DNA of 64,000 nt from a virus. The notes beneath the pieces were generated by a model. The model was not told where the DNA came from, did no database searches, and saw only the letters and a program-made list of their open reading frames with translations. The DNA is taken from positions 1 through 64,000 of IMG/VR virus record IMGVR_UViG_3300032093_000099. One strand, written 5' to 3'. Below are positions 52,049 to 63,716 of this stretch, piece by piece. The stretch's first letter is position 1, and each line of letters opens with the position of its first letter. A program made the position numbers and the translations under genes.

Positions 52049-52420
52049 ATGTTGTCATATAACGACTTTATTGCAGAAGGAAAAAAAGCAACCGAAGTTT
52101 CGGGAAGAGTGATGACTACGAACAGCAATCCGCAAGCATCAATCAACCACTCCGATGAAACTATCGAAGGTCTTCGTCGTCGTCTGATCGATGTTTACTT
52201 TAAGAAATCTGAAGACAAAAAAGTTAGAGACGAAATGAACAAGTGCATATCCACATACGTATACGCGCTCGACAAAAAACTCAGGATCAGTTCAGACATA
52301 GTCGATAGGTTGGCAAAAGCAGCAGAAGAAACCAGCGAAGAAACTATGAAAGTTCTTACAAAAGAGACTGAGAAATTCTACGGTGATGAAAAACCTAACC
52401 ATTACGGAACAACAGCATAA
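52049..52420 (+). CDS. Capsid-targeted internal protein (CTS), unknown body
   Basis: A 123-residue protein. Its N-terminus MLSYNDFIAE|GKK is the closest in the window to the T4 tag MKTYQEFIAEA, with an I-A-E cleavage site before Gly. After removal of 10 residues the body is hydrophilic and helical ('IEGLRRRLIDVYFKKSEDKK'), with no membrane segment or Cys. The size and charge resemble T4 internal proteins, which are packed in the head and injected. It is the first gene after an AGATATATAG box. Confidence 0.6.
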   Translation: MLSYNDFIAEGKKATEVSGRVMTTNSNPQASINHSDETIEGLRRRLIDVYFKKSEDKKVRDEMNKCISTYVYALDKKLRISSDIVDRLAKAAEETSEETMKVLTKETEKFYGDEKPNHYGTTA

Positions 52421-52438
52421 AATAAAAAATCATAAGAA

Positions 52439-53245
52439 ATGAAAAAACTGTCAACACAAGCTCCACTAATTCGCGAGGCTGAAGAAAAAGCGATGTCTGA
52501 ACTTCAAAAAGATTGGAGAGAATACTTCGGAGCAAAACTTGCTAAGTTTGGTGTAAATTCGCCAGCCGACTTAGACGAAGAAAAGAAAAAAGAATTCTTC
52601 AACGATCTTAAGAGCGACTGGGAAAAAGGCAAAGGTGCTACCGAGGCTGGTAAGAAGGACATTGAAGAACAGGGAGTAAAAGAAGGCGAAGAAGTCAACG
52701 AAAAAGAGATCACAGCCGAAGAACTCGTCAAGAAGATCATCAAAGGCAACTCAAGATTCAAATGGTTAAATGATGACCTGCCTAAGAACTACACACTTGA
52801 CGACGTAAAGAACGCTCTTGATGATGCTGGTTACAGCAAAGAATACACCAAGTACATCAAAGAAGGCGAAGAAGTCAACGAAGCTGGTGAATTCAAAGTA
52901 GGCGATAAAGTTGCTCTTTTGTCCAAAGCTGATAAAAAGAAATTCGACGCGGGCGTAGTAGTCAAGATTCAATCTGATGGAAACGTAGTGGTAGATAAAA
53001 CCAAAAACTTTAGCCTCGAGATTGTGATGGATCCAGAGTTCCTCGTCAAAGAAAACGAAGAAGTCAATGAAGCAGAAGTAAAAACCGAAGCTGAGTTCAA
53101 AGAATACGCTGAGAAAGTTTTGAAGAAGGCTCACAAAGACGATTACGACGAAGCCAAAGCAAAAAAGACCATCGACGGAATTCTTAAGAAATCTGACGGT
53201 GACTTAGGCGCTGCTGTTGGAATGTTGACCAGTGGTCTTGCATAA
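52439..53245 (+). CDS. Capsid-targeted Lys/Glu-rich protein with three spaced VNE motifs
   Basis: A 268-residue, very charged helical protein. It starts MKKLSTQAPLIRE|AEE, a divergent tag with an I-R-E site. Residues about 20-63 ('LAKFGVNSPADLDEEKKKEF') are an amphipathic module. Three [KEG/KEN]-EEVNE motifs at residues 81-88, 141-148 and 204-211 separate segments of about 55-60 residues. The middle segment has an SH3-like 'FKVGDKVALLSKADKKKF' start. V-N-E also ends the tag of the gene at 62835, so the motifs may be cleavage sites that split the protein. Prohead core or internal protein is inferred. Confidence 0.6.
   Translation: MKKLSTQAPLIREAEEKAMSELQKDWREYFGAKLAKFGVNSPADLDEEKKKEFFNDLKSDWEKGKGATEAGKKDIEEQGVKEGEEVNEKEITAEELVKKIIKGNSRFKWLNDDLPKNYTLDDVKNALDDAGYSKEYTKYIKEGEEVNEAGEFKVGDKVALLSKADKKKFDAGVVVKIQSDGNVVVDKTKNFSLEIVMDPEFLVKENEEVNEAEVKTEAEFKEYAEKVLKKAHKDDYDEAKAKKTIDGILKKSDGDLGAAVGMLTSGLA
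52679..53071 (+). repeat. Three in-frame EEVNE-coding repeats
   Basis: Units at 52679-52702, 52859-52882 and 53048-53071. The first two are identical over 24 bases and exactly 180 bases apart; the third is 189 bases further with several substitutions. Each encodes an eight-residue K-E-[GN]-E-E-V-N-E block. The even spacing suggests domain-level duplication or selection for regularly placed processing sites. Confidence 0.75.
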
Positions 53246-53259
53246 AAACTTTAGTATTC

Positions 53260-54594
53260 ATGAATCTACTGAAATATCAAGACTTCCTAATTAAGGAATC
53301 GCAAAGAACATCTTTAGTCGAACTAATGAAGCTCGACGAAGAAGCAGGCTTGTATGATGCACTAAATGAAGGTGGCGCGTACGGACACTTGGCGCATCCT
53401 TTTGAAGACATCGGTCTGACTATGCAAGACGTCAAAGATATGATAACTTCTGCAGTCAGCGGTGCTTTCGGTCCTGAGAACTTTGTCCAAGAAAAGACCG
53501 ACGGGCAACAGCTGTCAATTACATGGAAAGACGGAGAAGTCAGAGCCGCAAGGAATAAAGGTCAGCTCAAGAATTTTGGCAAAGATTCACTATCAGCGGC
53601 TGGAATCGCGAGCATGTTCGCTGGAAGAGGCGATATAGAAATAGCTTTCAACGCAGCGATGAAGGATCTAGGCGCATCTATTGGCTCTCTATCTGCCGCT
53701 GACAAGGAAAAGTATTTTGGCAACGGCAAAAAGTTTGCCAGCATAGAAATCATAACACCGGTTACACAAAACACTGTTCCCTACGGACAGAACATGTTGG
53801 TGTTTCACGGAGTTGTAGAATATGACGAAAATGGAAATGTCATAGGTGAAGACAAGCAAGCAGGTCGTGACTTAGGTAAGTTGATCGCAGAAGCAAACGC
53901 AGCGGCTCAAGAAACTTTCTTTGTCCGCGGACCGCAAGACATTGCTCTCCAACCGCTTCCCAATACAAAAGCTCGTCAGTCTTACTATGAGTCTTTGCTG
54001 AGCAATATCATGAAAGAAAGCGGCACCAACTTTGCATCTTCAATCGAAGAATACGCTTTGGGAAATGCAAAAAGGATCCTCCAGGAGCTTGCGGCCAAGA
54101 GCAAAATAAATATACCGTCAGAGTATCTTGATGCGCTTGGCAAGCGTGTAGCTGGTATCGACAAGTCATTCACGGCGCCGCAGATCAAAAAATCGCTCGA
54201 GCCAGCGGCGGCAGACTGGTTCATCAACCTGGAGAAATCTCAAGAGAAAGAACTCAGAAAACGAGTGTACCAACCTCTTGAAGCAATCTTCTTAGAGCTG
54301 GGAACGGAAGTCATGAAGAACGTATCTTCTTTCTTGTCAGCAAATCCTACGCAGGCTGCTGAATCAATGAGAAAAGAAATCGACGGAGTGATCAGCAAGA
54401 TTCGCAAAGACGGCGGAGAAGCAGACGTCAAGAAAATGGAATACGAACTGGAGAGAGTCGCAGCAGCTGGCGGTTTAGACGCAATCGTCCCGACCGAAGG
54501 AATCACATTCCTATACAAAGGCAAGCTCTACAAGTTTACAGGAATCTTTGCACCTTTACACCAGATCCGTTCAATACTTGCTTACAAAAAGTAA
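53260..54594 (+). CDS. Capsid-targeted ATP/RNA-ligase-like nucleotidyltransferase
   Basis: A 444-residue protein. The N-terminus MNLLKYQDFLIKE|SQR carries an I-K-E site, and 'DALNE|GGAYGHLAHPFED' adds a second (L-N-E|G, residue 37). The core has signatures of the covalent nucleotidyltransferase (ligase) superfamily: motif I 'EKTDGQQ' (Lys79 as the expected adenylated Lys), a 'ASIEII' strand (160-165), 'MLVFHGVVEY' (about 179-188) and a C-terminal 'EGITFLYKG' (413-421) plus 'LYKFTG' (motifs IV/V). It could seal DNA or RNA or transfer AMP to another target. The substrate is unknown. Packaging would deliver it at infection. Confidence 0.65.
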   Translation: MNLLKYQDFLIKESQRTSLVELMKLDEEAGLYDALNEGGAYGHLAHPFEDIGLTMQDVKDMITSAVSGAFGPENFVQEKTDGQQLSITWKDGEVRAARNKGQLKNFGKDSLSAAGIASMFAGRGDIEIAFNAAMKDLGASIGSLSAADKEKYFGNGKKFASIEIITPVTQNTVPYGQNMLVFHGVVEYDENGNVIGEDKQAGRDLGKLIAEANAAAQETFFVRGPQDIALQPLPNTKARQSYYESLLSNIMKESGTNFASSIEEYALGNAKRILQELAAKSKINIPSEYLDALGKRVAGIDKSFTAPQIKKSLEPAAADWFINLEKSQEKELRKRVYQPLEAIFLELGTEVMKNVSSFLSANPTQAAESMRKEIDGVISKIRKDGGEADVKKMEYELERVAAAGGLDAIVPTEGITFLYKGKLYKFTGIFAPLHQIRSILAYKK

Positions 54595-54600
54595 AAAGAG

Positions 54601-54891
54601 ATGAAACACATACACACATTTGAGAACTTCTTAAACGAGTCGGAACACATGTCTGTCAACGAATTTGAGACTTCGCTGAATGAACTTAGACTTACATCTG
54701 CTGGTGTAAAAGAGTTGCTTACAGCAATTTATTACAACTGGGATAAAATCAAAGACAAGATTCGCCAAGAGTATTACTTCAAATCGTTTAAAGATGTCAT
54801 GGAATTTCTACTGACCGGAGATCAAGAAGAAATGGAAGAGTTGGAAAATGTCGTAAAAAAATTCGGAGTCGAAATACTAAAATTGAAATAA
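54601..54891 (+). CDS. Capsid-targeted small protein (CTS)
   Basis: A 96-residue protein with the canonical tag MKHIHTFENFLNE|SEH. 'MSVNE' (residues 17-21) and 'TSLNE' (24-28) lie close behind and might be further trimming sites. The mature part of about 70-80 residues is helical ('VKELLTAIYYNWDKIKDKIR') and slightly acidic at the end. No family is recognised. It starts 6 bases after the ligase-like gene and is followed 4 bases later by another tagged gene with a near-identical start. Confidence 0.6.
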   Translation: MKHIHTFENFLNESEHMSVNEFETSLNELRLTSAGVKELLTAIYYNWDKIKDKIRQEYYFKSFKDVMEFLLTGDQEEMEELENVVKKFGVEILKLK

Positions 54892-54895
54892 GTCA

Positions 54896-55204
54896 ATGAA
54901 ACACATACCATCATACGAAAACTTTTTGAACGAAGGCAACGATTCCGAAATGAAAGAATTTAAGACCAAGCTCGACAGACACGATTGGTACTACATGATG
55001 TCCGACGATAATCGTGTCTATACTCGTGGATCAGCCGAGGCTGATGAACTTGGCAAGATGATCAATAAGATCGGCAAAGAAGCGGAAGACTTGTACATAA
55101 AAGCTTACAAAAAAATGTTTCCGCACTCGAACTACACACCTAAGATTCTTAAAAACGAGAATGACAGATATGCAACATTTGCAGAAGTAAAAAACATGAG
55201 ATAA
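54896..55204 (+). CDS. Capsid-targeted small protein (CTS)
   Basis: A 102-residue protein beginning MKHIPSYENFLNE|GND. The body is charged and rich in Tyr/Met ('HDWYYMMSDDNRVYTR') with a helix 'KMINKIGKEAEDLYIKAYKK'. No catalytic motif is recognised. The tag resembles that of the preceding gene, but the bodies differ, so the tags were shared or conserved while the cargo diverged. Confidence 0.6.
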   Translation: MKHIPSYENFLNEGNDSEMKEFKTKLDRHDWYYMMSDDNRVYTRGSAEADELGKMINKIGKEAEDLYIKAYKKMFPHSNYTPKILKNENDRYATFAEVKNMR

Positions 55205-55205
55205 A

Positions 55206-55448
55206 ATGGAAAACAACCAATTCCCTACATTCGAAAACTTTAGAGAAGAAACCAAAGCCAACGAAGCGATGGTCCAGGTCGCAGGAAAAAGCAAACCGTC
55301 GGGTGCAACAGTACTTGCGACAGTCATCGTTGACTATATGATCAACAACAATTTGATCAACACAGGTGCAATCGACGTTAAAAATCGCATTTCTCGCAAA
55401 GAGCTTGTTGATACCGTTAAAGATATCATCATGGACAGTACGTTCTAA
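55206..55448 (+). CDS. Small protein with degenerate CTS
   Basis: An 80-residue protein, MENNQFPTFENFREE|TKANE|AMVQ. 'PTFENF' keeps the core F-E-x-F of the tag, but the hydrophobic residue before x-E is replaced, so the cleavage position is uncertain. The remainder ('GATVLATVIVDYMINNNLIN') is a compact helical segment followed by 'ISRKELVDTVKDIIMDSTF'. It sits between a tagged gene and the ferritin gene. Confidence 0.5.
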   Translation: MENNQFPTFENFREETKANEAMVQVAGKSKPSGATVLATVIVDYMINNNLINTGAIDVKNRISRKELVDTVKDIIMDSTF

Positions 55449-55463
55449 AAACAACACATCATA

Positions 55464-56030
55464 ATGCAAGAATTCAATTCATTTAGAAAAACAAAGTCAG
55501 GCAAGCTCAACGAAGCGATTGACTTTGGCACATCACCGGTCAAACCAAAGACAGTCGCTCCTGAAGTAGAGACTATGTTGAACGCCAGACTCGGTGACGA
55601 GTACACCGCGTACTTCTTTTACAGAAATGCTGCCAACTGGTGCAAGAACGCCAACTACAAGAAAGCCGCTGCATTCTTTAACGCAGAAGCAGACGGAGAA
55701 CTTGGTCACGCTCAAGGAATCCAAGATTACTTGACTCAGTGGAACCTCATTCCCGCGATTCCTCAAGTACCTACCGCGCTAAACTTTGGCGGATTGGTCG
55801 AGATCATCAACAAGGCATACGATCTAGAGTACAACTTGCTTCTTAAGTATTCTGAAGACCAAAAGATGTTGCTCGACAAAGATCCGGCTACATTCAATTT
55901 CATTCAAAAATACGTCGACATTCAGAACGGTGAGGTAGAAGAATACTCTGACTATCTAAACTCTCTTGAGTTGGTGAACCCCAACAACAAATTCGAGGTG
56001 CTTTACTTTGAGCAGACTTACTTTGGCTAA
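55464..56030 (+). CDS. Ferritin-like iron-storage protein with capsid-targeting N-terminus
   Basis: A 188-residue protein whose residues about 34-188 align from memory along the full bacterial non-haem ferritin (FtnA) four-helix bundle. Ferroxidase ligands are retained: Glu46 (FtnA E17), Glu79 and His82 (E50, H53), Glu122 (E94), Gln154 (Q127) and Glu157 (E130); Tyr53 matches Y24. The third iron site appears lost (E49, E126 and E129 positions are Gly, Ile, Gly). The first 17 residues, MQEFNSFRKTKSGKLNE|AID, form an extension with an L-N-E|A site. Ferritins oxidise Fe2+ with O2 or peroxide and store Fe3+. Packaging could protect DNA or help infection under oxidative stress. Confidence 0.85.
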   Translation: MQEFNSFRKTKSGKLNEAIDFGTSPVKPKTVAPEVETMLNARLGDEYTAYFFYRNAANWCKNANYKKAAAFFNAEADGELGHAQGIQDYLTQWNLIPAIPQVPTALNFGGLVEIINKAYDLEYNLLLKYSEDQKMLLDKDPATFNFIQKYVDIQNGEVEEYSDYLNSLELVNPNNKFEVLYFEQTYFG

Positions 56031-56039
56031 ACATCATTA

Positions 56040-57473
56040 ATGAGTGATCTTAAACTATACGAAGAATTTGTGCAGTCTCTCTTAGAAGAGGAAAAGATCC
56101 TTGTAAGAAATAAAAAGTCGGGTGCTGTCTACGACATCAATCAAAAAAGTTTCAATCCTAGTAAACACGAAGTGCCAAAACCTAAAGAGATTGATAAAGC
56201 TGAGAAAGAAGTAGAAAAAAAGGCAGAGAAAAAAGGATCATCGCACAATCTTAGTAAATCTTCGATAGATAACGCCAGAAATCAATCTAACAAAATCGAT
56301 GGTCTCTTAAAAGATGCTGATGATGACACAAAAGAAAGAGGGAGAATTGTTAAAGAGCAGTTTAATAAGTTACTTAATGCTAAGTCTGAAGAAGAAGAGG
56401 TAGAAGCAATACAAGTTTTGATCGACAATAATCTAATACAAGGTCACTCAGGCGGAACTAAAATTTATATGTCGCCTAACACTCTTTTGCCAAGAAAGTT
56501 CTTTGCAGGAGAACAAGGAAACTCTTTGACAAAAAGAATGAATGCAGTAATTGCCAAACATAATCTTCCTATAGAAATTCGGCAAAGCAGTGCAGATAGA
56601 ACTCTGGCAGACACAAGTGGAAAACACAATGAGGCTGGTGTAGTTGCATATCTGTATGATAGTCCTGAAAACAAAAAGGCATATGAGGAACTACAAAAGA
56701 AATTCACAGATCTTGGCGGAGGTGACGAAAAAAGGTATGATGAGATCAACCGAGAAGTTGCTGAGATGATTAAGAATTCTTTACCGCCTGGATCAAAGAT
56801 AACAGGTGCCGAACAATTAGGAGGAAATGATGAAGCATCTATGGCGCGAAAAGCTGCTCTTGGTCTTAAGCCGAAAAGTAAAGTAGATTATGTAGTCCAT
56901 TACAAGGACAAAGATGGCAAAGATCAAATGATGAAAGTCACCGCCAAAACATACAGTGACCCAAGTAAAATTACTATGGAGAACTCGGGCGCGGTTAAAG
57001 CAGGAGAAAAGTTTTTAGGCAAAGATCTTGGCGAAAAGGTAGATAAAAAATACCAAGAACTCTGGGCGAAATATAAGTGGGACGATACCATGTCCGACAA
57101 AGAAAAGCGAGATAGAAAAACCGCATTAAAAAAGGAATACCTTCAAGAATTTGAGAAGGCCATGCAAGAGTTGGCAAAAACCAAAGAAGGACAAAAACAA
57201 TTGACACAAATGTGGAGGGATGTTCACGGTTGTGATGAAGATCTTTACGCGCAGATCATCAATAAAAAAACAGGCGAGAAAAACTTACACCCACCTGGCC
57301 ATTATTGTAACCCAGGTCCCCCGTTTAAGATAAAATACGATGGAACAAAAATGGTCGTAGATGTTGGAGGAAGTGAAGGAGACATGGAGATAGTTCTAAA
57401 AACAGAAGATACCAAATCGCCCAAAGTTTTAATAAACCACGTAAAAAGAAAAAAGAAAAAAGACGATAAATGA
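56040..57473 (+). CDS. CTS-like protein with possible PD-(D/E)XK nuclease core; A/T-rich
   Basis: A 477-residue protein. The start MSDLKLYEEFVQSLLEE|EKI is a divergent tag. 'ILVRNKKSGAVYDI' and a long Lys/Glu linker follow. Residues 198-303 hold Glu198 ('KHNEAGVVAYL'), Asp283 ('KVDYVVHY') and Lys303 ('KVTAKTY') in the order and spacing of a PD-(D/E)XK nuclease; this is a pattern guess. 'HGCDEDLYAQIINKKTGEKN' and 'HPPGHYCNPGPPFKIKYDG' lie near the C-terminus. Hand counts on four 60-base lines gave about 32-38% G+C, against 45-50% in three lines of neighbouring genes, suggesting recent acquisition. Confidence 0.55.
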   Translation: MSDLKLYEEFVQSLLEEEKILVRNKKSGAVYDINQKSFNPSKHEVPKPKEIDKAEKEVEKKAEKKGSSHNLSKSSIDNARNQSNKIDGLLKDADDDTKERGRIVKEQFNKLLNAKSEEEEVEAIQVLIDNNLIQGHSGGTKIYMSPNTLLPRKFFAGEQGNSLTKRMNAVIAKHNLPIEIRQSSADRTLADTSGKHNEAGVVAYLYDSPENKKAYEELQKKFTDLGGGDEKRYDEINREVAEMIKNSLPPGSKITGAEQLGGNDEASMARKAALGLKPKSKVDYVVHYKDKDGKDQMMKVTAKTYSDPSKITMENSGAVKAGEKFLGKDLGEKVDKKYQELWAKYKWDDTMSDKEKRDRKTALKKEYLQEFEKAMQELAKTKEGQKQLTQMWRDVHGCDEDLYAQIINKKTGEKNLHPPGHYCNPGPPFKIKYDGTKMVVDVGGSEGDMEIVLKTEDTKSPKVLINHVKRKKKKDDK

Positions 57474-58012
57474 AACACATAAGAACATTCGACGGGTTTC
57501 TCTATGAAGGATTCATGAGTTCGCTGGATCTCATCGCGCAAGACGCAAAAGATCTCGCAGACTTTAAGAAAAAAGCAAAGAGAGACTTTCCGCAGATTGC
57601 AAAGCTCGAAGGCGCCGATGAGTGGCTTGAAGAAATTTATAGCCAAGCAATCAAAGAAAGCGTAAATGAAGCTATTGACCTCAATGATCCAGTGCTTGTT
57701 GCTTTAAGAGCGTCTAAAGAAGACAGGACAAAGAAAGCCGCTGCTCAAAAAGAACGCATGAAAAAGCGCGTCTATGGAAAACAAAGAGAAAAACTTGAAG
57801 TTGATCTTTGGACAATTTCTATAGATCTGAAAGATGCTTACGCAGAAAGAAGAGACATCTACAATAATATGGAATCGGAAGCTGGCGAAAAAGGAGATGA
57901 TTGGAATGACGCTGATGCTAACCGCTACGGCAAACTTTTAAATGATGTGGATTCAAAAATTGAAACTTTAATCAAAAAGAGACAAGAAATCGAAACAAAG
58001 CTTGCATACTAA
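57470..58012 (+). CDS. Capsid-targeted coiled-coil protein (CTS)
   Basis: A 180-residue protein starting MKHIRTFDGFLYE|GFM. A second candidate site lies at about residue 64 ('KESVNE|AIDLNDPVLVALR'), again V-N-E before Ala. The part beyond it is a highly charged helical region ('ALRASKEDRTKKAAAQKERM') and a C-terminal coiled coil with basic and acidic heptads. The body suggests an internal or core protein rather than an enzyme. It overlaps the previous gene by 4 bases (ATGA) and the next by one (TAATG). Confidence 0.6.
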   Translation: MKHIRTFDGFLYEGFMSSLDLIAQDAKDLADFKKKAKRDFPQIAKLEGADEWLEEIYSQAIKESVNEAIDLNDPVLVALRASKEDRTKKAAAQKERMKKRVYGKQREKLEVDLWTISIDLKDAYAERRDIYNNMESEAGEKGDDWNDADANRYGKLLNDVDSKIETLIKKRQEIETKLAY

Positions 58013-59046
58013 TGAAACACTTGCTTACACTGGAATCCTTTTTGGAAATGCGAGAGCTATCAAACATTGATGACTGGGCATTGGACGAAAGTCTTAACGA
58101 AGCAGCAGGAATTGATGCAATCAAGCTCAAAAGCGAAAAGTCGGGCAGAAAGATCAAACTGACTTCTGCTCTGAAATATCCTAAAGGATCACCTACTAGA
58201 AAACAGGCCGAAGAAATTGTAGATGCTTTAAGAAAGAAGCAGACCAAAATCGAAGACAAGCCCGAATCTGAAATAGAATACGTCAAAGGCGATGAAGACC
58301 TTAAGAAGCTCATGCCCAATGCAGACGTTACCAAAAAGTTGCTTAGTGAAATTCCAGCAGAGGAAAAGAAAGATGCAATCACTGCGATCGACAAAATTGC
58401 AGACGAGATAATGACCGCCAAAGAAGAGGGTCGCCCAGTACAAAATACCAATCTGTGCTCGGTAACAATTCCTGGTACTAACATGTATTGTGATGCCAAC
58501 AAAAACATTCCTCGTGAAAAAATGCCCCAGTTTCGCGGCAAGCCTGAAAAAGGTTCGGCTGCTGACAAGATGCCTCGAGACAGCAACGGTGAAGTAGAAA
58601 CATCACACTTATTCGACAAGATGCTCGACAAAGAAGGCATTAAGATATCCAAGCCTACAGAGATCGACGCTTCCAGCCTCAAGGCAACACAAGCAGAACT
58701 CGTAGGTCCTAAAGTGGTAGGCATGACAAAGGTGCTCGCTAAGAACTGTGAAAAAGACAAGTGCAGCCCTGATGAAATGAAAGACTGGAACAACATCACA
58801 GGTCCTGTCTATGTTTCAAACGACGGATACGTAGTTGACGGTCACCACCGTTGGGCCGCGATTGTTTCACATAACCTCAAGAATCCAGACAAACAGATTC
58901 CTATGAAGGTCCGTGTAATTGACGACAAGATCGACAGCATCATACCTAAAGCCAACAAGTTTGCCGAAGACATCGGAATTGCCGCTAAGACAGGTAAAGA
59001 AGGCACCAAAGGTGGAGAACCTGCTGCACAAACCAAAAAGAAATAA
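58012..59046 (+). CDS. Capsid-targeted ParB/sulfiredoxin-like protein
   Basis: A 344-residue protein. The start MKHLLTLESFLEMRE is a variant tag; a clean L-N-E|A site occurs at residue 30 ('DESLNE|AAGID'). At about 266-290 'PVYVSNDGYVVDGHHRWAAI' matches the ParB/Srx fold, where D-G-x-H-R binds nucleotide (G-x-x-R-x2-A in ParB CTPases). A Cys-containing segment 'CSVTIPGTNMYCDANKN' at about 149-165 is unassigned. ParB-like domains can be CTPases, nucleases or phosphotransferases, so the activity cannot be fixed. Confidence 0.6.
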   Translation: MKHLLTLESFLEMRELSNIDDWALDESLNEAAGIDAIKLKSEKSGRKIKLTSALKYPKGSPTRKQAEEIVDALRKKQTKIEDKPESEIEYVKGDEDLKKLMPNADVTKKLLSEIPAEEKKDAITAIDKIADEIMTAKEEGRPVQNTNLCSVTIPGTNMYCDANKNIPREKMPQFRGKPEKGSAADKMPRDSNGEVETSHLFDKMLDKEGIKISKPTEIDASSLKATQAELVGPKVVGMTKVLAKNCEKDKCSPDEMKDWNNITGPVYVSNDGYVVDGHHRWAAIVSHNLKNPDKQIPMKVRVIDDKIDSIIPKANKFAEDIGIAAKTGKEGTKGGEPAAQTKKK

Positions 59047-59052
59047 TTAGTC

Positions 59053-59415
59053 ATGTACTACATACACACATACGAGTCTTTCATAAATGAAGCGGAAGAC
59101 ATAGGTACGCAGAAAAGTGCCGCTCTCGATTTTGTCGAGAAAAAAGGAAAAGCTACATGGAAAGAAATACATTCTTTCTTGATGAAGAACAAAGGTTTTG
59201 ATCCAGCTGAATACGGCAACCGAGGCAATATGTCTTCGTACTTTTCAGGCGGAGGTTATGCTATCATAGCAGCAGCCGATGCTAAGTCGGGCAGAAGTGG
59301 CAAAACACACGGGTTGTTGATGGTTCCTACAATGAAAGATCCAAGATATCTTGACAAACAAGAAGACGGAACTTACGTCGTTAAAGTATGGGACAAGAAA
59401 AGCAAACTTGTGTAA
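59053..59415 (+). CDS. Capsid-targeted small protein (CTS)
   Basis: A 120-residue protein, MYYIHTYESFINE|AED, with a textbook I-N-E|A site. The body looks like a small winged-helix or similar α/β fold: 'ALDFVEKKGKATWKEIHSFL', then 'YFSGGGYAIIAAADAK' and a C-terminal β-hairpin 'GTYVVKVWDKKSKLV'. A DNA-binding role is possible by resemblance only. It is flanked by tagged genes with 3-6 base gaps. Confidence 0.55.
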   Translation: MYYIHTYESFINEAEDIGTQKSAALDFVEKKGKATWKEIHSFLMKNKGFDPAEYGNRGNMSSYFSGGGYAIIAAADAKSGRSGKTHGLLMVPTMKDPRYLDKQEDGTYVVKVWDKKSKLV

Positions 59416-59418
59416 AGA

Positions 59419-59949
59419 ATGAAATACGTCAAGACATACGAGAACTTTTTGTATGAAGCCAAGCAAGTAGGCACTGTTTATCACTACACTACGATATTGG
59501 CGCTTCTCAAAATTCTTGATGATGACGTATTAGGAGACAAGTCTTTAGGCAAGTACGCAAGAGTATCATTAACTCGAGACAAAAACTTTCAAAAGAGAAC
59601 CCGGATCATACCTGCCGAATGTAGAATTACGATTGATGGCAATAAGCTATCTAACCGCTATAAAGTTCAACCGTATCAATGGAATGCCTCTCATTTTAGC
59701 GGAAAGGCAGCCACTAAAGGCGGAGAAATTGAGGACCAGATGGAAGAAGAGGTACAAGGTTACATTACGGGAATCACAAATTACATCCAAAAGATTGAAC
59801 TGTTTGAACTTGAGTTGGATCCGCTCCCTTTTGATGAAGACTTTACATTAGAAGCAAGCAAGATAATCGACAAGCCGTCTGATGAAATTAACCAACAAGA
59901 CATAGTTGACTTCATCAAAAGACACGTAAAAGACACTAAAGTAATATGA
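59419..59949 (+). CDS. Capsid-targeted putative ADP-ribosyltransferase-like protein
   Basis: A 176-residue protein, MKYVKTYENFLYE|AKQ. Directly after the tag, 'GTVYHYTTILALLKILDDDV' resembles the H-Y-T/S...IL start of ADP-ribosyltransferase-like toxins (DarT- or RNA 2'-phosphotransferase-type folds). 'ARVSLTRDKNF' (47-57) follows at the usual distance of the S-x-T-R-D strand. An acidic 'DQMEEEVQGYI' (107-117) could hold the catalytic Glu. T4 packages the ADP-ribosyltransferase Alt with a CTS, so the same logic is attractive here. The family call is tentative. Confidence 0.5.
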   Translation: MKYVKTYENFLYEAKQVGTVYHYTTILALLKILDDDVLGDKSLGKYARVSLTRDKNFQKRTRIIPAECRITIDGNKLSNRYKVQPYQWNASHFSGKAATKGGEIEDQMEEEVQGYITGITNYIQKIELFELELDPLPFDEDFTLEASKIIDKPSDEINQQDIVDFIKRHVKDTKVI

Positions 59950-60485
59950 AGTACATAAAGACATTTGAAGACTATCAAGTCTCTGAAGGGTTTCGCTACC
60001 ACATGGAGAACGGATTGGATATCACCAACTCGGTTTTTCGTATAGGAAGCGATGCTTACAAACAATTGTTCGAAGAGACCAAGAAATACTGGGATGAAGG
60101 CAACATCATCCTAAAAGACAAAGCCGCTTGGATGGCTAAGAATCTGGAAGTTGGCACTAAAGCTAAATTCAAGTCAGACGATGGCAAGATGCTCGATGTA
60201 GAGTTAGATACTCCAACTAGAGGTGGAGACAAAAAGTTCCAAGTATACCACAACAGCGGCAAGAAAGACGACGATGGCAACATCATCGCCTTCAAAATCG
60301 AATGGGGAGACACAAGTGGCCTAAGCATCAAGAACGACGATCCAGCAGCTGCTGCTAGTTTTTGGGCAAGACAGCAATGTGACACCAAAGGAAGAATGGA
60401 TCCATCGAAACCTGGTTTCTGGGCCTGCTACGCGCCTTCTCTGTTCGGCAAACAACTGGGTTTGAGCTCGGATCAGCCCTGGTAA
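59946..60485 (+). CDS. Capsid-targeted protein with C-terminal PSKPGFWACYAP motif
   Basis: A 179-residue protein starting MKYIKTFEDYQVSE|GFR, with a V-S-E|G candidate site. The middle is a β-rich 'VGTKAKFKSDDGKMLDVELD' module that looks SH3-like. The C-terminus contains 'ARQQCDTKGRMDPSKPGFWA' followed by CYAPSLFGKQLGL, a conserved-looking Cys/Pro/Trp motif. No name is assigned. It overlaps the preceding gene by 4 bases and ends the first continuous run of tagged genes. Confidence 0.55.
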   Translation: MKYIKTFEDYQVSEGFRYHMENGLDITNSVFRIGSDAYKQLFEETKKYWDEGNIILKDKAAWMAKNLEVGTKAKFKSDDGKMLDVELDTPTRGGDKKFQVYHNSGKKDDDGNIIAFKIEWGDTSGLSIKNDDPAAAASFWARQQCDTKGRMDPSKPGFWACYAPSLFGKQLGLSSDQPW

Positions 60486-60500
60486 AAAAACACAATCATT

Positions 60501-60671
60501 ATGAAACTTACAAAAGAGCAATTCTTAGGAATCGTTAGACACACACTAACTTTCGTTGGCGGTATTCTCGTCATGAAAGGAATCGTCGACGACGCAGCAT
60601 ACGCAGAACTTTCTGGAGCTGTACTTACACTCGCAGGCGGACTATGGTCTGTTGTCGCTAAGAACAAATAA
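60501..60671 (+). CDS. Small two-helix membrane protein (holin-like)
   Basis: A 56-residue protein from ATG 60501. It has a short hydrophilic start, hydrophobic segment 1 ('FLGIVRHTLTFVGGILVMKG'), a turn ('IVDDAAYAE') and hydrophobic segment 2 ('LSGAVLTLAGGLWSVVA'), ending in a short basic tail. Tiny two-helix proteins of this shape are common phage holin candidates, which permeabilise the inner membrane at the end of infection. It lacks the cargo tag. A strong intrinsic terminator follows 19 bases after the stop, closing the cargo transcription unit. No endolysin is adjacent, so the lysis role is unproven. Confidence 0.6.
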   Translation: MKLTKEQFLGIVRHTLTFVGGILVMKGIVDDAAYAELSGAVLTLAGGLWSVVAKNK

Positions 60672-60690
60672 CTCTTGGCTATGAAATAAG

Positions 60691-60722
60691 AGGCCGGTTC
60701 GCAAGGACCGGCTTTTCTTTTT
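60691..60722 (+). terminator. Intrinsic terminator
   Basis: GCCGGT / ACCGGC stem (60693-60698 with 60707-60712) around an 8-base loop, followed by TTTTCTTTTT. It is the clearest rho-independent terminator in the window and lies between the holin-like and nuclease genes. Confidence 0.85.
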
Positions 60723-60747
60723 GAGATAAATAAAACAAACCCACCTT

Positions 60748-61335
60748 ATGAAAAGATTCTTACTTCCAATACTTTCGCTGGTCATTCTCGCCAGCTTCGT
60801 GCTTCCAAGCAGCCTCAGAGACAATGTTACCGTCAAGACTGACATGTACACAGTCGTCTACTCAGAAATCTTGGAACAGCCTAAGAGAGTCGAATACAAC
60901 GTACAGTGCACAGAGACTAAGTTTTCCCGTGACGGTCTTGACTTCTATACATGTGACAGCATTAAGACTTCTGACAATGCCGACTACGCAAATAACGAAT
61001 ACGACAAAGGACACATGGCACCAGCTGCCGACTTTGCTTGTGACAAAGACAAACTTAAGAGAACTTTTTCGTATCTCAACTGTGCTCTACAACAAGAGAA
61101 CTTAAACCGCGGAGTCTGGAGATTCTTAGAAGTCAGAGAAAGAAACCTCGCCAAAGTTGCTCCCACCAAAGTAGTAATCGAGGTACACTTTAGCAAATCT
61201 TCAAAGAAACTTCCTACGGGTGCCACCATACCTGACGGATTCACCAAGACGATCACATCGGGAAACGTAAAGGAAGTCTACTACTTTCCAAACATTAAAC
61301 CTATTAAGAAATCTTACAGTGACTACAAACTCTAA
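60748..61335 (+). CDS. Secreted DNA/RNA non-specific endonuclease (NUC-type)
   Basis: A 195-residue ββα-metal nuclease with an N-terminal signal peptide (about 1-21, 'FLLPILSLVILASFVLPSS'). The catalytic motif is 'YDKGHMAPAADF' (D86-K-G-H89, His89 as general base; the usual form is DRGH). It is followed by 'SYLNCALQQENLNRGVWRFL' with the metal-binding Asn111 and conserved Asn120, and Glu128 just after. These enzymes cut any DNA or RNA. Export to the periplasm would spare phage DNA in the cytoplasm and could destroy incoming or released DNA. The gene starts a new unit after the terminator. Confidence 0.85.
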   Translation: MKRFLLPILSLVILASFVLPSSLRDNVTVKTDMYTVVYSEILEQPKRVEYNVQCTETKFSRDGLDFYTCDSIKTSDNADYANNEYDKGHMAPAADFACDKDKLKRTFSYLNCALQQENLNRGVWRFLEVRERNLAKVAPTKVVIEVHFSKSSKKLPTGATIPDGFTKTITSGNVKEVYYFPNIKPIKKSYSDYKL

Positions 61336-61594
61336 CACAAGACCGTTCGACGAAAGCCGTCTAAATGATATCATAATCAGGCGTTTCTTACCCACGGTTG
61401 ATGAATCAGAGTTGAAGTGGCACTGGGACGAACAAGAAAGAATCATAGAACCCTTGAATCAAAACGATTGGATGTTCCAATTCGACAATGGACTTCCATT
61501 CCCAATTAGAGAAAAGATAAATATACCAGCCGGCGTTATACATCGAGTGATCAAAGGATCAACGGACCTGGTCATAAAAATTAAAATGATATGA
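61319..61594 (+). CDS. Small cupin-like protein
   Basis: A 91-residue protein that overlaps the nuclease gene by 17 bases. 'LKWHWDEQERIIEPLNQNDW' and 'INIPAGVIHRVIKGSTDLVI' match the two halves of a minimal cupin barrel (H-x-D/E..., then P-x-G-x-x-H). The motif-1 His/Glu and motif-2 His could bind a metal. Substrate or structural role is unknown. The next gene's ATG overlaps its stop (ATGA). Confidence 0.6.
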   Translation: MTTNSNTRPFDESRLNDIIIRRFLPTVDESELKWHWDEQERIIEPLNQNDWMFQFDNGLPFPIREKINIPAGVIHRVIKGSTDLVIKIKMI

Positions 61595-61740
61595 AAAGAA
61601 TACTTTTAGTCTTATGCGTTGCGATTCTTGCTTCGTGTGCAACTAAAAAGAAAGCCATGCAAAAGTGCGATTCTTACAGTTGCGTAAAGTGCGAACACAA
61701 AGAAAGCGCTAAATGCGATCACAAAAACAAATCAAAATAA
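61591..61740 (+). CDS. Small Cys-rich lipoprotein
   Basis: A 49-residue lipoprotein from ATG 61591. The signal 'MKRILLVLCVAILASC' ends in a lipobox (LASC, Cys16 lipidated). The mature part is about 34 residues with Cys, His and Lys clusters ('CDSYSCVKCEHKESAKCDHK'), suggesting metal binding. Size and lipidation recall outer-membrane spanins, but the Cys-rich body is unlike them. Superinfection exclusion at the envelope is another option. Junctions are ATGA upstream and TAATG downstream. Confidence 0.65.
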   Translation: MKRILLVLCVAILASCATKKKAMQKCDSYSCVKCEHKESAKCDHKNKSK

Positions 61741-62255
61741 TGGAAAACACATTCTTATCTTTTAACGCTTTCAAGAGCATCAACGAAAAAGATGAAAAAG
61801 GCAAAGAAGAAGCCAAAAAGAAAGAACCTGTAGAACTTCCAAAGGAAGACAAGGTCGACACGTCTGGCGGTCAGTACAAAGAAATGAACATCAATGGCAA
61901 GGACTACATGGCCATTCTTTCTACTTTGACTGCAATTGGCAGCAAGCAAGAAGCTATGGGAGAGAAGAAAGTTGGCATCGTATCATTGCCCGGTGACGAA
62001 AAAGTTTATGAACTTGTGCCCAAAGGCGAAGGCGGCGAAGAACAGTCCAACGAATCAGAAGCTAATGAAAGCACGGTAAACGAGGAATACGTTGAAGTAA
62101 TGAATTTACCTGAACTTGCAAATGCATTGGGTAAAGTTGCTTTTCTTTGGAAAGAATGGAAAAACGGTCCTATGACCGAGCCCAGCGACATCAAACCCGC
62201 GCAAAAAGAATTAAAAGGTTGGATCGACCGTTGGTTCAAAGACAACATTAAATAA
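61740..62255 (+). CDS. Capsid-targeted acidic protein (CTS)
   Basis: A 171-residue protein. ATG 61740 overlaps the lipoprotein stop (TAATG) and gives MENTFLSFNAFKSINE|KDE, a tag ending in I-N-E. An ATG 27 bases upstream lies inside the lipoprotein gene and would bury the tag. The body has a Lys/Glu stretch, 'VDTSGGQYKEMNINGKDYMA', an acidic 'SNESEANESTVNE' linker (another V-N-E) and a C-terminal helix-rich domain ('LPELANALGKVAFLWKEWKN'). Unknown function; processing in the linker is possible. Confidence 0.6.
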   Translation: MENTFLSFNAFKSINEKDEKGKEEAKKKEPVELPKEDKVDTSGGQYKEMNINGKDYMAILSTLTAIGSKQEAMGEKKVGIVSLPGDEKVYELVPKGEGGEEQSNESEANESTVNEEYVEVMNLPELANALGKVAFLWKEWKNGPMTEPSDIKPAQKELKGWIDRWFKDNIK

Positions 62256-62256
62256 C

Positions 62257-62835
62257 ATGAAGCACGTCAAGACTTTTGAAAGCTTCATATTCGAAGCGGC
62301 CGGAAACGATGTAGTATTCTTTCCTGGTAGATTCCAGCCTTTTCACAAAGGTCATCTTGCCGCTCTTAAGAGAACAGCCGATGTTTTTGGAAAACCCGTC
62401 GTTGCCTTGCAGATCGTATCAGCCAACGAAGATTCTCCGTTTCCTGATTCTTTGCTCGCCAAGATGGCTAAAGACGTCGTTCGTTACAATTCTTTCATCA
62501 AGGATTTTCAGATCTATCCTCAAGGCAGAAAGACAGTGATTCCTTTGATGGTCCGATTCCTCAGAGAGGAAGGATATGAGCCTTACGGTCTTGGTGCCGG
62601 TGCGGATCGCATGAAAGACTATCAGCGCCAAGTTGAATACATCACCGGTCCTAAGACCGACACTCCGGTAGATCCTTCGTTTTCTGTCAAACTCGTAGAC
62701 ACTCGAGAAGGAGACGGTCCCAGCGGTACCAAAGTTCGCCAGGCTCTTAAAGATGATGATCGCGCAGCTTTTAACGATCTGATGCCTAAAGAACTTCACA
62801 AGTACTTTGATGAACTCAAAAAATACATCAAGTAA
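62257..62835 (+). CDS. Capsid-targeted NMN-adenylyltransferase-like enzyme
   Basis: A 192-residue protein. The tag MKHVKTFESFIFE|AAG is followed at once by the nucleotidyltransferase α/β core: 'VVFFPGRFQPFHKGHLAALK' (19-38) with H-x-G-H (30-33), and 'GPSGTKVRQAL' (154-164), equivalent to the ISSTxVR motif that grips ATP. This is the layout of NadM/NMNAT-type and related cytidylyltransferases, which make NAD+ from NMN and ATP (or CDP compounds). Phage NAD-restoring enzymes counter host NADase defences, so early delivery from the capsid would make sense; that is inference. It is coupled to the next gene by TAATG. Confidence 0.75.
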   Translation: MKHVKTFESFIFEAAGNDVVFFPGRFQPFHKGHLAALKRTADVFGKPVVALQIVSANEDSPFPDSLLAKMAKDVVRYNSFIKDFQIYPQGRKTVIPLMVRFLREEGYEPYGLGAGADRMKDYQRQVEYITGPKTDTPVDPSFSVKLVDTREGDGPSGTKVRQALKDDDRAAFNDLMPKELHKYFDELKKYIK

Positions 62836-63716
62836 TGAAATACGTTAAACTATTTGAGCAGTTCGTCAACGAAAGCGGAAACGCAGTCGACAATGTTCGT
62901 CCTATCAAACAAGACGAAGTAATCGACACTGCCAAATGGGTAGAGAAAGAAATCTTCCCACAGATCGGCCTGACTGCTCTTGAAGACGATGCTGCTGTGA
63001 TAGGTTCAGCCGGCAAGAAATTGCCCGACCAAACAAGCGGAGACATCGACATTGCTGTTTCTGCCGACAAGATCGCAGGTTTTTTGGGAGTACCTGTCCA
63101 AAACACACTCTTTGCGTTGAACGACAAACTCAAATCATTGGGCTACCAAACCAAAATGATGCCAGGTTTCAACCAAGTCAGCATCGCAGCACCCGTCGGA
63201 GGCTACGCTTCTCGCGGTTACGCACAGGTAGACTTTATGATTTCTACCGACCTAAACTGGAGTCGATTCATATACCATTCGCCAGACTTTAGGACGGCCG
63301 AATCAAGGTACAAAGGAGCTTACCGCAACTTGTTGCTGATGGCAGCAATCGGCAAGTCATTCTTTGAAGTCACTAAGAAGACCGACGCTGGAGAGACCGC
63401 AGAGTTTCAAGCGTATGTGGTTCGTCTAAATCAAGGAATCGTCCAAGTAAGAAAATCTTTCGAAGGTAAGAAAGGACTTCTTAAGACGGCTGCTCTTCTC
63501 AAAGATTACGACAAGTTCGTGACGAACACACCCGAAGCAGTAGTAGAATTGCTTTTCAAAGGCAAGCACACACCTAAAGACATAGACACATACGAAAAGT
63601 TGAAAAGCTTGATCGATTCGACCGACTTCAAGTATCCTGGCGCAAGGTCTGACATCTACCAAGACTTCGAGCAAAAGCTGGAAGACGCAAAACTTCCGAT
63701 GCCAGAAAACTTGTAG
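62835..63716 (+). CDS. Capsid-targeted pol-β-type nucleotidyltransferase
   Basis: A 293-residue protein, MKYVKLFEQFVNE|SGN. The nucleotidyltransferase signature is present: 'AVIGSAGKKLPDQTSGDIDI' (G57-S58, then D70-x-D72) and the third carboxylate in 'AQVDFMI' (Asp133). Family members transfer NMPs to RNA ends, proteins or antibiotics (tRNA nucleotidyltransferases, MNT toxins/antitoxins). The C-terminal 130 residues are helical. With the NMNAT-like neighbour, two nucleotidyltransferases of different folds appear as adjacent cargo. The target is unknown. Confidence 0.7.
   Translation: MKYVKLFEQFVNESGNAVDNVRPIKQDEVIDTAKWVEKEIFPQIGLTALEDDAAVIGSAGKKLPDQTSGDIDIAVSADKIAGFLGVPVQNTLFALNDKLKSLGYQTKMMPGFNQVSIAAPVGGYASRGYAQVDFMISTDLNWSRFIYHSPDFRTAESRYKGAYRNLLLMAAIGKSFFEVTKKTDAGETAEFQAYVVRLNQGIVQVRKSFEGKKGLLKTAALLKDYDKFVTNTPEAVVELLFKGKHTPKDIDTYEKLKSLIDSTDFKYPGARSDIYQDFEQKLEDAKLPMPENL

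Follow-up and report, generated by a model that had tools for sequence, protein, structure and literature searches.

A gene island in a T4-related myovirus with predicted capsid-targeting tags and candidate cargo polyproteins

The DNA of interest is a stretch of 64,000 bases (called the window below) from the IMG/VR virus record IMGVR_UViG_3300032093_000099, a fragment of 68,101 bases. The record belongs to a T4-related myovirus: genes recognisable in the window include (i) those for a gp5-like hub, a baseplate wedge, neck proteins and the tail tube, and (ii) those for UvsW, a gp32-like protein, a primase, a RuvC-like resolvase, PhoH and a polynucleotide-kinase-like protein. Between 52 and 63.7 kb lies an island of 20 genes, located where the original prediction had placed them and all on the plus strand (Table 1; genes are named here by their first base). 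Many of their products begin with a shared short peptide, the tag, which the original prediction took for a capsid-targeting sequence that the T4-type protease gp21 would remove. A near-identity DNA search of GenBank phages with the island and its flank returned nothing close.

In order to avoid circularity, the tag was scored with a nine-position matrix built from 63 distinct tag cores, taken only from related IMG/VR loci and applied to the window afterwards. Eight of the 20 island genes score at least 9, compared with none of the 36 other genes in the window (Fisher 9e-5). A second measure asks for [FYL]xxF in the first 14 residues and for [ILVMA]-x-E-[AGS] after it; this layout is found in 13/20 island genes and 0/36 genes elsewhere in the window (Fisher 4e-8, a value that serves as a guide only, the layout having been defined post hoc). 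The matrix test is, for this reason, the cleaner of the two. Sixteen tagged genes had originally been counted; thirteen stand by their layout, and the figure of sixteen holds only if three weak, degenerate members (52439, 56040 and 61713) are included. The remaining four genes (holin, exported nuclease, cupin-like and lipoprotein) are untagged, as had been described, with matrix scores of -18 to 3. A search for tagged genes past the window added one more, MRVYEKYTLSFDEFINE↓GK, at contig positions 66755-67105 (arrows mark predicted cuts). Close to the contig end, at 67778-68101 (L001 4079-4402), a truncated gene starts MPSVSKAQQRLMGMAYALKKG; its relative L018_8759 has three strong VNE-type sites.

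Comparison with T4 revealed two points of correspondence. Firstly, the matrix, which had never been shown T4, was run on 258 T4 open reading frames (ORFs) and ranked IPIII and IPII first and second, followed by gp22 in third place. The leader shared by IPIII and IPII, MKTYQEFIAEA, is a proven capsid-targeting sequence, and gp22 is a natural gp21 substrate; the likeness to this T4 leader noted in the original prediction is thus recovered by a matrix of purely environmental tags. Secondly, the most conserved matrix positions (F/Y, F, I/L/V and E) correspond to T4 residues Y/F4, F7, I8 and E10, and amber-suppression work on T4 IPIII assigns targeting mainly to residues 4 and 7, and processing to residues 8 and 10 (PMC9026906). 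T4 IPI, in which the cut is displaced downstream (MKTFKEFTSTTTPVSTITE↓A), scores poorly with the matrix and has the same layout as several island tags. These tags had previously been described as degenerate and their IPI-like layout overlooked, as were the second cut sites and cargo polyproteins described below. Ferritin leaders are of this IPI-like type, both in L095 (MKTFQTFKENGITINE↓A) and in the window (MQEFNSFRKTKSGKLNE↓A). Judged by its sequence, the island tag is a T4-type capsid-targeting sequence.

Predicted cut sites were examined INDEPENDENTLY of the tag in three ways: (i) in the propeptides of the ligase-like protein, (ii) as second sites downstream of the tag, and (iii) at domain junctions. 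Among 20 ligase-like relatives (17 distinct propeptides), the leader is 18-63 residues long, the longest possibly reflecting over-long start calls, and always ends in [ILVM]-x-E directly before GG[A/S]YGHL. In 164 tagged proteins, the 30 residues that follow the tag contain [ILVM]NE[AGS] at a rate of 5.2 per 1000, compared with 0.47 in untagged proteins (11-fold, p 1e-15); the reversed motif shows hardly any enrichment. Embedded shuffled domains start seven or fewer residues from a site in 57/90 cases (63%) that involve a tagged protein, and in 7/131 (5%) that do not (p 1e-21, from rows that include homologues and hence are not independent events); for random positions in the same proteins, the proportions near a site are 16% (tagged sets) and 6% (others). 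Ferritin leaders vary among the relatives, most of them ending in [ILV]NE↓[AGS].

The protein encoded at 52439 is a chain of modules split by GEEVNE↓K, GEEVNE↓A and NEEVNE↓A. In four relatives (L005, L022, L023 and L036) the last module directly follows the VNE, INE or VTE of the first, and relative to these the two middle modules of 52439 are inserted exactly between VNE and the last module. Relatives grow to 459-736 residues with extra modules, and L022 carries the last module twice. An AlphaFold model of the whole protein (mean confidence 49, mostly low) is useful only for the last module and the first helical part; of the modules, only the last is predicted to fold with confidence, from around residue 211. 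We predict that 52439 is better read as a polyprotein than as a weakly tagged single gene. Similar exchanges between single genes and modules are seen elsewhere: (i) the body of 55206 is the last module of L005_13123 and L007_13855, (ii) the body of 54601 is an internal module of L008_3689, (iii) a 'DMTK.YDGFIVLD' module, which forms a tagged gene of its own in L006, is embedded in longer proteins in L005 and L007, and (iv) the 62835-type nucleotidyltransferase is preceded by other modules, with F[VI][VS]E↓S where they meet, in L016 and L018-L021.

Tagged proteins of 698-956 residues (MNFQDFLNEG..) are encoded in G009 (66117-68648), L016 (14801), L018 (6146), L020 (16092) and L023 (8307); these look like further long polyproteins, and their first module matches the tagged gene at 66755-67105 of our own contig. 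Microcystis phage Mel-JY01 (L004 11243-13162) joins nucleotidyltransferase and ligase-like domains in one ORF, with IIAE↓GG at the joint. LR756508 (L003 13474-16221) has a single ORF that combines nucleotidyltransferase, ligase-like and ParB-like domains, each of which has its own gene in the window. No clear cut site lies ahead of the ligase-like domain of this triple fusion, and the junction rule is therefore not universal outside the lineage. One protein being cut at several sites by a prohead protease has precedents in T4 gp22 and in head proteins of phiKZ and SPN3US (PMC5694885); division of cargo domains by a prohead protease was not found in the literature searched.

Could the pattern merely reflect descent from duplicated gene starts, or an element of the DNA itself at those positions, the peptide having no function? 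The codons of the tag do vary between genes, as had been observed from the start, yet where residues are identical, the codon too is shared somewhat more often than expected from codon usage (0.61 versus 0.48). Some common descent of the tags is therefore likely. Tag identity is 0.50 between unrelated cargo of the same genome, 0.67 between homologous cargo of different genomes, and 0.44 between unrelated cargo of different genomes. The tags of homologous cargo being most alike, tags would seem mostly to travel with their cargo; strong concerted evolution, by which each genome would homogenise its tags, is unsupported by these values. Shared codons and the likeness of tags on homologous cargo are what an ancestry or DNA-level explanation would predict. 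However, the bodies behind the tags are mostly unrelated, the key residues are kept through codon changes and across lineages, and the same peptide logic recurs in proven T4 proteins and at internal junctions far from gene starts. We consider a functionless peptide highly improbable.

Our own contig stops before the head genes, and relatives were therefore used for the protease search. A search with the ligase-like gene retrieved 19 related viral loci. The gp21-like protease on which the original prediction relied is present as a Pfam S77 (gp21-type) match in seven of ten related records, the other three being fragments; in our own record none was found. The GELxHP and SSR segments of T4 gp21 are retained in the relatives' protease (31% identity over 127 residues), which continues into a fused, scaffold-like C-terminal part about 450 residues long. 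This part contains many [ILVM]xE↓[AGS] sites, many of them in the VNE, INE and LNE forms seen in the tags. The fused gene lies between the portal and major capsid protein genes, and several tagged genes lie within the same head cassette.

A census of three long relative contigs, not certified as complete, gave 49/413, 22/190 and 24/205 tagged genes, compared with 1.1, 0.7 and 0.2 expected from interior segments. Ninety-four tagged proteins from the census were compared with two family collections. Pfam matched five families in a few members (cytidylyltransferase-like, KTSC, HD and two more), leaving about 90 of the 94 proteins with no Pfam family match. PHROGs matched twelve families, including cytidyltransferase, tRNA nucleotidyltransferase and, weakly, RNA 2'-phosphotransferase; there was also one weak match to PHROG 2667, 'internal head protein'. 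Neither collection gave any tail, replication or packaging family. Outside the close relatives, matrix matches number two in T4, one (weak) in the cultured Tenacibaculum phage PTm1, none in the scanned parts of Lak-A1, and five in 100 kb of LR756500. On the genomes compared, the tag expansion is specific to this lineage.

A different possibility is that the tag sorts proteins elsewhere (to a membrane, a phage nucleus or an assembly factory), resembles that of T4 by chance, and carries an [LIV]xE that the prohead protease leaves uncut. Cleavage being read from sequence only leaves some room for this. The T4 cross-check, the scaffold's own sites, and the [ILVM]xE motifs at propeptide ends and module junctions nevertheless all fit cleavage, and we regard such an alternative destination as very unlikely.

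The functions of individual cargo proteins are tentative. The ferritin can be aligned with most solved ferritins from residue 30-38 onwards only, so that some 30 residues form a leader, with LNE↓A at 17; no protein-level relative of it was found among GenBank phages. KTDG is conserved in the ligase-like protein, whose weak structural matches are headed by RNA and tRNA ligases (VIA-align, Z up to 5.2). This protein gave no Pfam or PDB sequence match, and its model no Foldseek match at E 0.001; the propeptide is modelled at a predicted local distance difference test score of 30-45. PDB sequence searches returned nothing useful for the 59419 protein or for the 62835 nucleotidyltransferase profile. 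Speculatively, the YHYTT motif of the former could indicate an ADP-ribosyltransferase/KptA-like fold. The pairing of a ligase with a Pol-beta nucleotidyltransferase resembles the RNA-repair pairs of jumbo phages (PMC7824862), and T4 Alt is a precedent for a packaged enzyme (PMC9026906). As a hypothesis, a packaged repair kit would mend host-cut tRNA before phage genes are read.

Table 1. Genes of the island, with predicted tags and cut sites (arrows)
Position	Strand	Feature	Evidence
52049..52420	+	Tagged gene, nearest to T4's own tag, MLSYNDFIAE↓GKK, predicted cut after residue 10	Score 12.1; relative L007_8261 at 44%
52439..53245	+	Predicted cargo polyprotein, LIRE↓A at residue 13, VNE at residues 88, 148, 211	Sites, module comparison, model
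53260..54594	+	RNA-ligase-like adenylyltransferase (KTDG), 37-residue propeptide ending DALNE↓GGAYGHL	20 homologues
54601..54891	+	Small tagged protein, MKHIHTFENFLNE↓S	Score 25.2; body is a C-terminal module of a larger protein in L008
54896..55204	+	Small tagged protein, MKHIPSYENFLNE↓G	Score 18.1
55206..55448	+	Tag and displaced site, PTFENFREETKANE↓A	Body is last polyprotein module in L005, L007
55464..56030	+	Ferritin, IPI-like leader MQEFNSFRKTKSGKLNE↓A, predicted cut after residue 17	PF00210 6e-20
56040..57473	+	Weakly tagged protein, MSDLKLYEEFVQSLLEEE (LYEEF...LLEEE)	Degenerate, score 0.8
57470..58012	+	Tagged protein, MKHIRTFDGFLYE↓G, second site SVNE↓A at residue 67	Matrix, sites
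58012..59046	+	Tagged ParB-like protein, tag LTLESF, displaced site SLNE↓A after residue 30	phrog_2859 3e-13; PF08857 below cut-off
59053..59415	+	Tagged protein, MYYIHTYESFINE↓A	Score 24.2
59419..59949	+	Tagged protein, MKYVKTYENFLYE↓A, YHYTT motif	Score 15.0
59946..60485	+	Conserved cargo, MKYIKTFEDYQVSE↓GF	Homologues 32-88% identity, most with [VI]SE↓[GA] closing the leader
60501-60671	+	Holin, untagged	Untagged group: PF23987, PF01223 matches
60748-61335	+	Exported DNA/RNA non-specific nuclease, untagged	Untagged group: PF23987, PF01223 matches
61319-61594	+	Cupin-like, untagged	Matrix score within -18 to 3
61591-61740	+	Small lipoprotein, untagged	Matrix score within -18 to 3
61713..62255	+	Weakly tagged protein; called start gives FLSFNAFKSINE↓K, likely start 61740 gives MENTFLSFNAFKSINE↓K	Sequence
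62257..62835	+	Tagged nicotinamide-mononucleotide-adenylyltransferase-like enzyme, cytidylyltransferase fold, MKHVKTFESFIFE↓A	Score 23.5; PF01467 2e-7; PDB 1f9a 3.5e-4
62835..63716	+	Tagged Pol-beta-type nucleotidyltransferase (GS...DID), MKYVKLFEQFVNE↓S	Score 28.4; motif conserved

Three rows of Table 1 call for comment. The true start of 61713 probably lies 27 bases downstream of the annotated one, at the ATG of 61740, which coincides with the end of the lipoprotein ORF and gives a tag-like leader. The 56040 protein has no relatives within the set of loci compared. The untagged nuclease (60748-61335) has a signal peptide and adjoins the holin gene; it is possibly a lysis-stage or periplasmic enzyme.

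A Shine-Dalgarno-like site at -18 to -4 is found in 0/17 island genes checked and, by the same rule, in 12/17 T4 genes; the sequence upstream of the island genes is A-rich, and both traits are those expected with a Bacteroidota host. The major capsid proteins akin to those of the relatives come from Prevotella and Tenacibaculum phages. Taken together, the missing Shine-Dalgarno-like sites and the capsid kinship make a Bacteroidota host likely.

We infer that the island is, very probably, part of a T4-type capsid-targeting and prohead-protease system that has been expanded roughly tenfold and extended to polyproteins, with the tagged proteins packaged and cleaved. The aromatic-x-x-Phe half of the tag would dock a protein onto the scaffold core of the assembling prohead. 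During head maturation, the gp21-type protease would cut after [Leu/Ile/Val]-x-Glu, removing the tag and freeing the mature cargo within the shell ahead of DNA entry. The device appears to have spread to tens of genes in this lineage, and polyproteins would bring in several domains on a single entry signal, with V-N-E-A-type linkers as the places where the protease would separate them. Delivery would probably follow together with the DNA, the cargo acting in the first moments of infection. Such ejection is likely, by analogy with the T4 internal proteins and Alt, which enter the host; possible roles, put forward more cautiously, include repair of host-cut tRNA and the blocking of NAD- or nuclease-based defences.

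Alternatively, cargo could enter the prohead and be cleaved but stay in the head, where it would build the core, condense DNA or, as ferritin might against iron and oxidative damage, protect. Consistent with this, the head cassette includes some tagged genes, IPIII has an effect on head assembly in T4 (PMC9026906), and the ferritin shell is oversized for a tail tube. What enzyme-like cargo would do in a head, on the other hand, is not obvious; T4 ejects its internal proteins and Alt (PMC9026906), and IPIII is active in the host cytoplasm (PMC9391042). Retention in the head is accordingly a possible, but the less probable, fate.

Several observations weigh against a packaged, cleaved and ejected payload, in addition to the dependence among junction-test rows given above. 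The search for a gp21-type protease gave no match in our own 68,101-base record, a fragment that lacks head genes. Three of the 16 proposed tags are weak, and for every member packaging and cleavage are deduced from sequence. PTm1 and the scanned parts of Lak-A1 are essentially untagged, and the system is therefore not general across the wider group. Finally, a ferritin 24-mer is too big to pass assembled through a tail tube, and so not all cargo need be ejected.

The closest known system is that of T4, where IPI, IPII and IPIII likewise combine an N-terminal aromatic-x-x-Phe with hydrophobic-x-E↓[AGS], a gp21-type protease acts, and diverse cargo, including an enzyme (Alt), stands behind a conserved tag. 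The two differ in scale (49 tagged genes on one 294-kb relative contig, compared with a handful in T4), and in that the tags here are usually two or three residues longer, the protease is fused to the scaffold, candidate cargo polyproteins have internal cut sites, and gene starts are Bacteroidota-like rather than enterobacterial. The relatives' major capsid protein shares 36% identity with that of PTm1, 37% with those of Lak megaphages, and 51% with that of the uncultured huge phage LR756500; PTm1 also has an annotated fused scaffold-protease. Polyvalent proteins (Iyer et al. 2017, PMC5512222) are multi-domain injected proteins with shuffled domains that their authors liken to polyproteins, much as several modules are predicted to share one polypeptide here. 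In polyvalent proteins, however, the domains stay joined, some with an embedded metallopeptidase as processing enzyme, whereas we predict that the prohead protease cuts in trans at a short motif in the linkers; here the domains are also encoded singly, in tagged genes of their own. The ejection proteins of SPN3US and phiKZ (PMC5694885) resemble the present system in that many head proteins have propeptides cut by the prohead protease, some at multiple sites; theirs differ in that propeptides are often longer than 100 residues, sites are of the form [S/A/G]-x-E, and there is no common short tag. A literature search, with subscription journals mostly outside its coverage, found no paper in which 'capsid targeting sequence' and metagenomics occur together.

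As a rule, it takes virion proteomics of a cultured phage to learn which proteins are carried into the host. With a readable tag, the payload of uncultured phages could be listed directly from sequence. Since about 90 of the 94 tagged proteins scanned lack a Pfam match, they form a ready catalogue of candidate first-minute anti-defence and takeover proteins. The tags could also broaden the set of protein-loading signals for laboratory phage capsids. If true, the cutting of polyprotein cargo would be a new use of the prohead protease, with a logic near that of animal-virus polyproteins. More broadly, we lean towards the view that this lineage has a general head-cargo platform, in which about one gene in nine would be tagged for loading, polyproteins would be divided by the protease, and domains would be freely added and swapped between single-gene and polyprotein forms.

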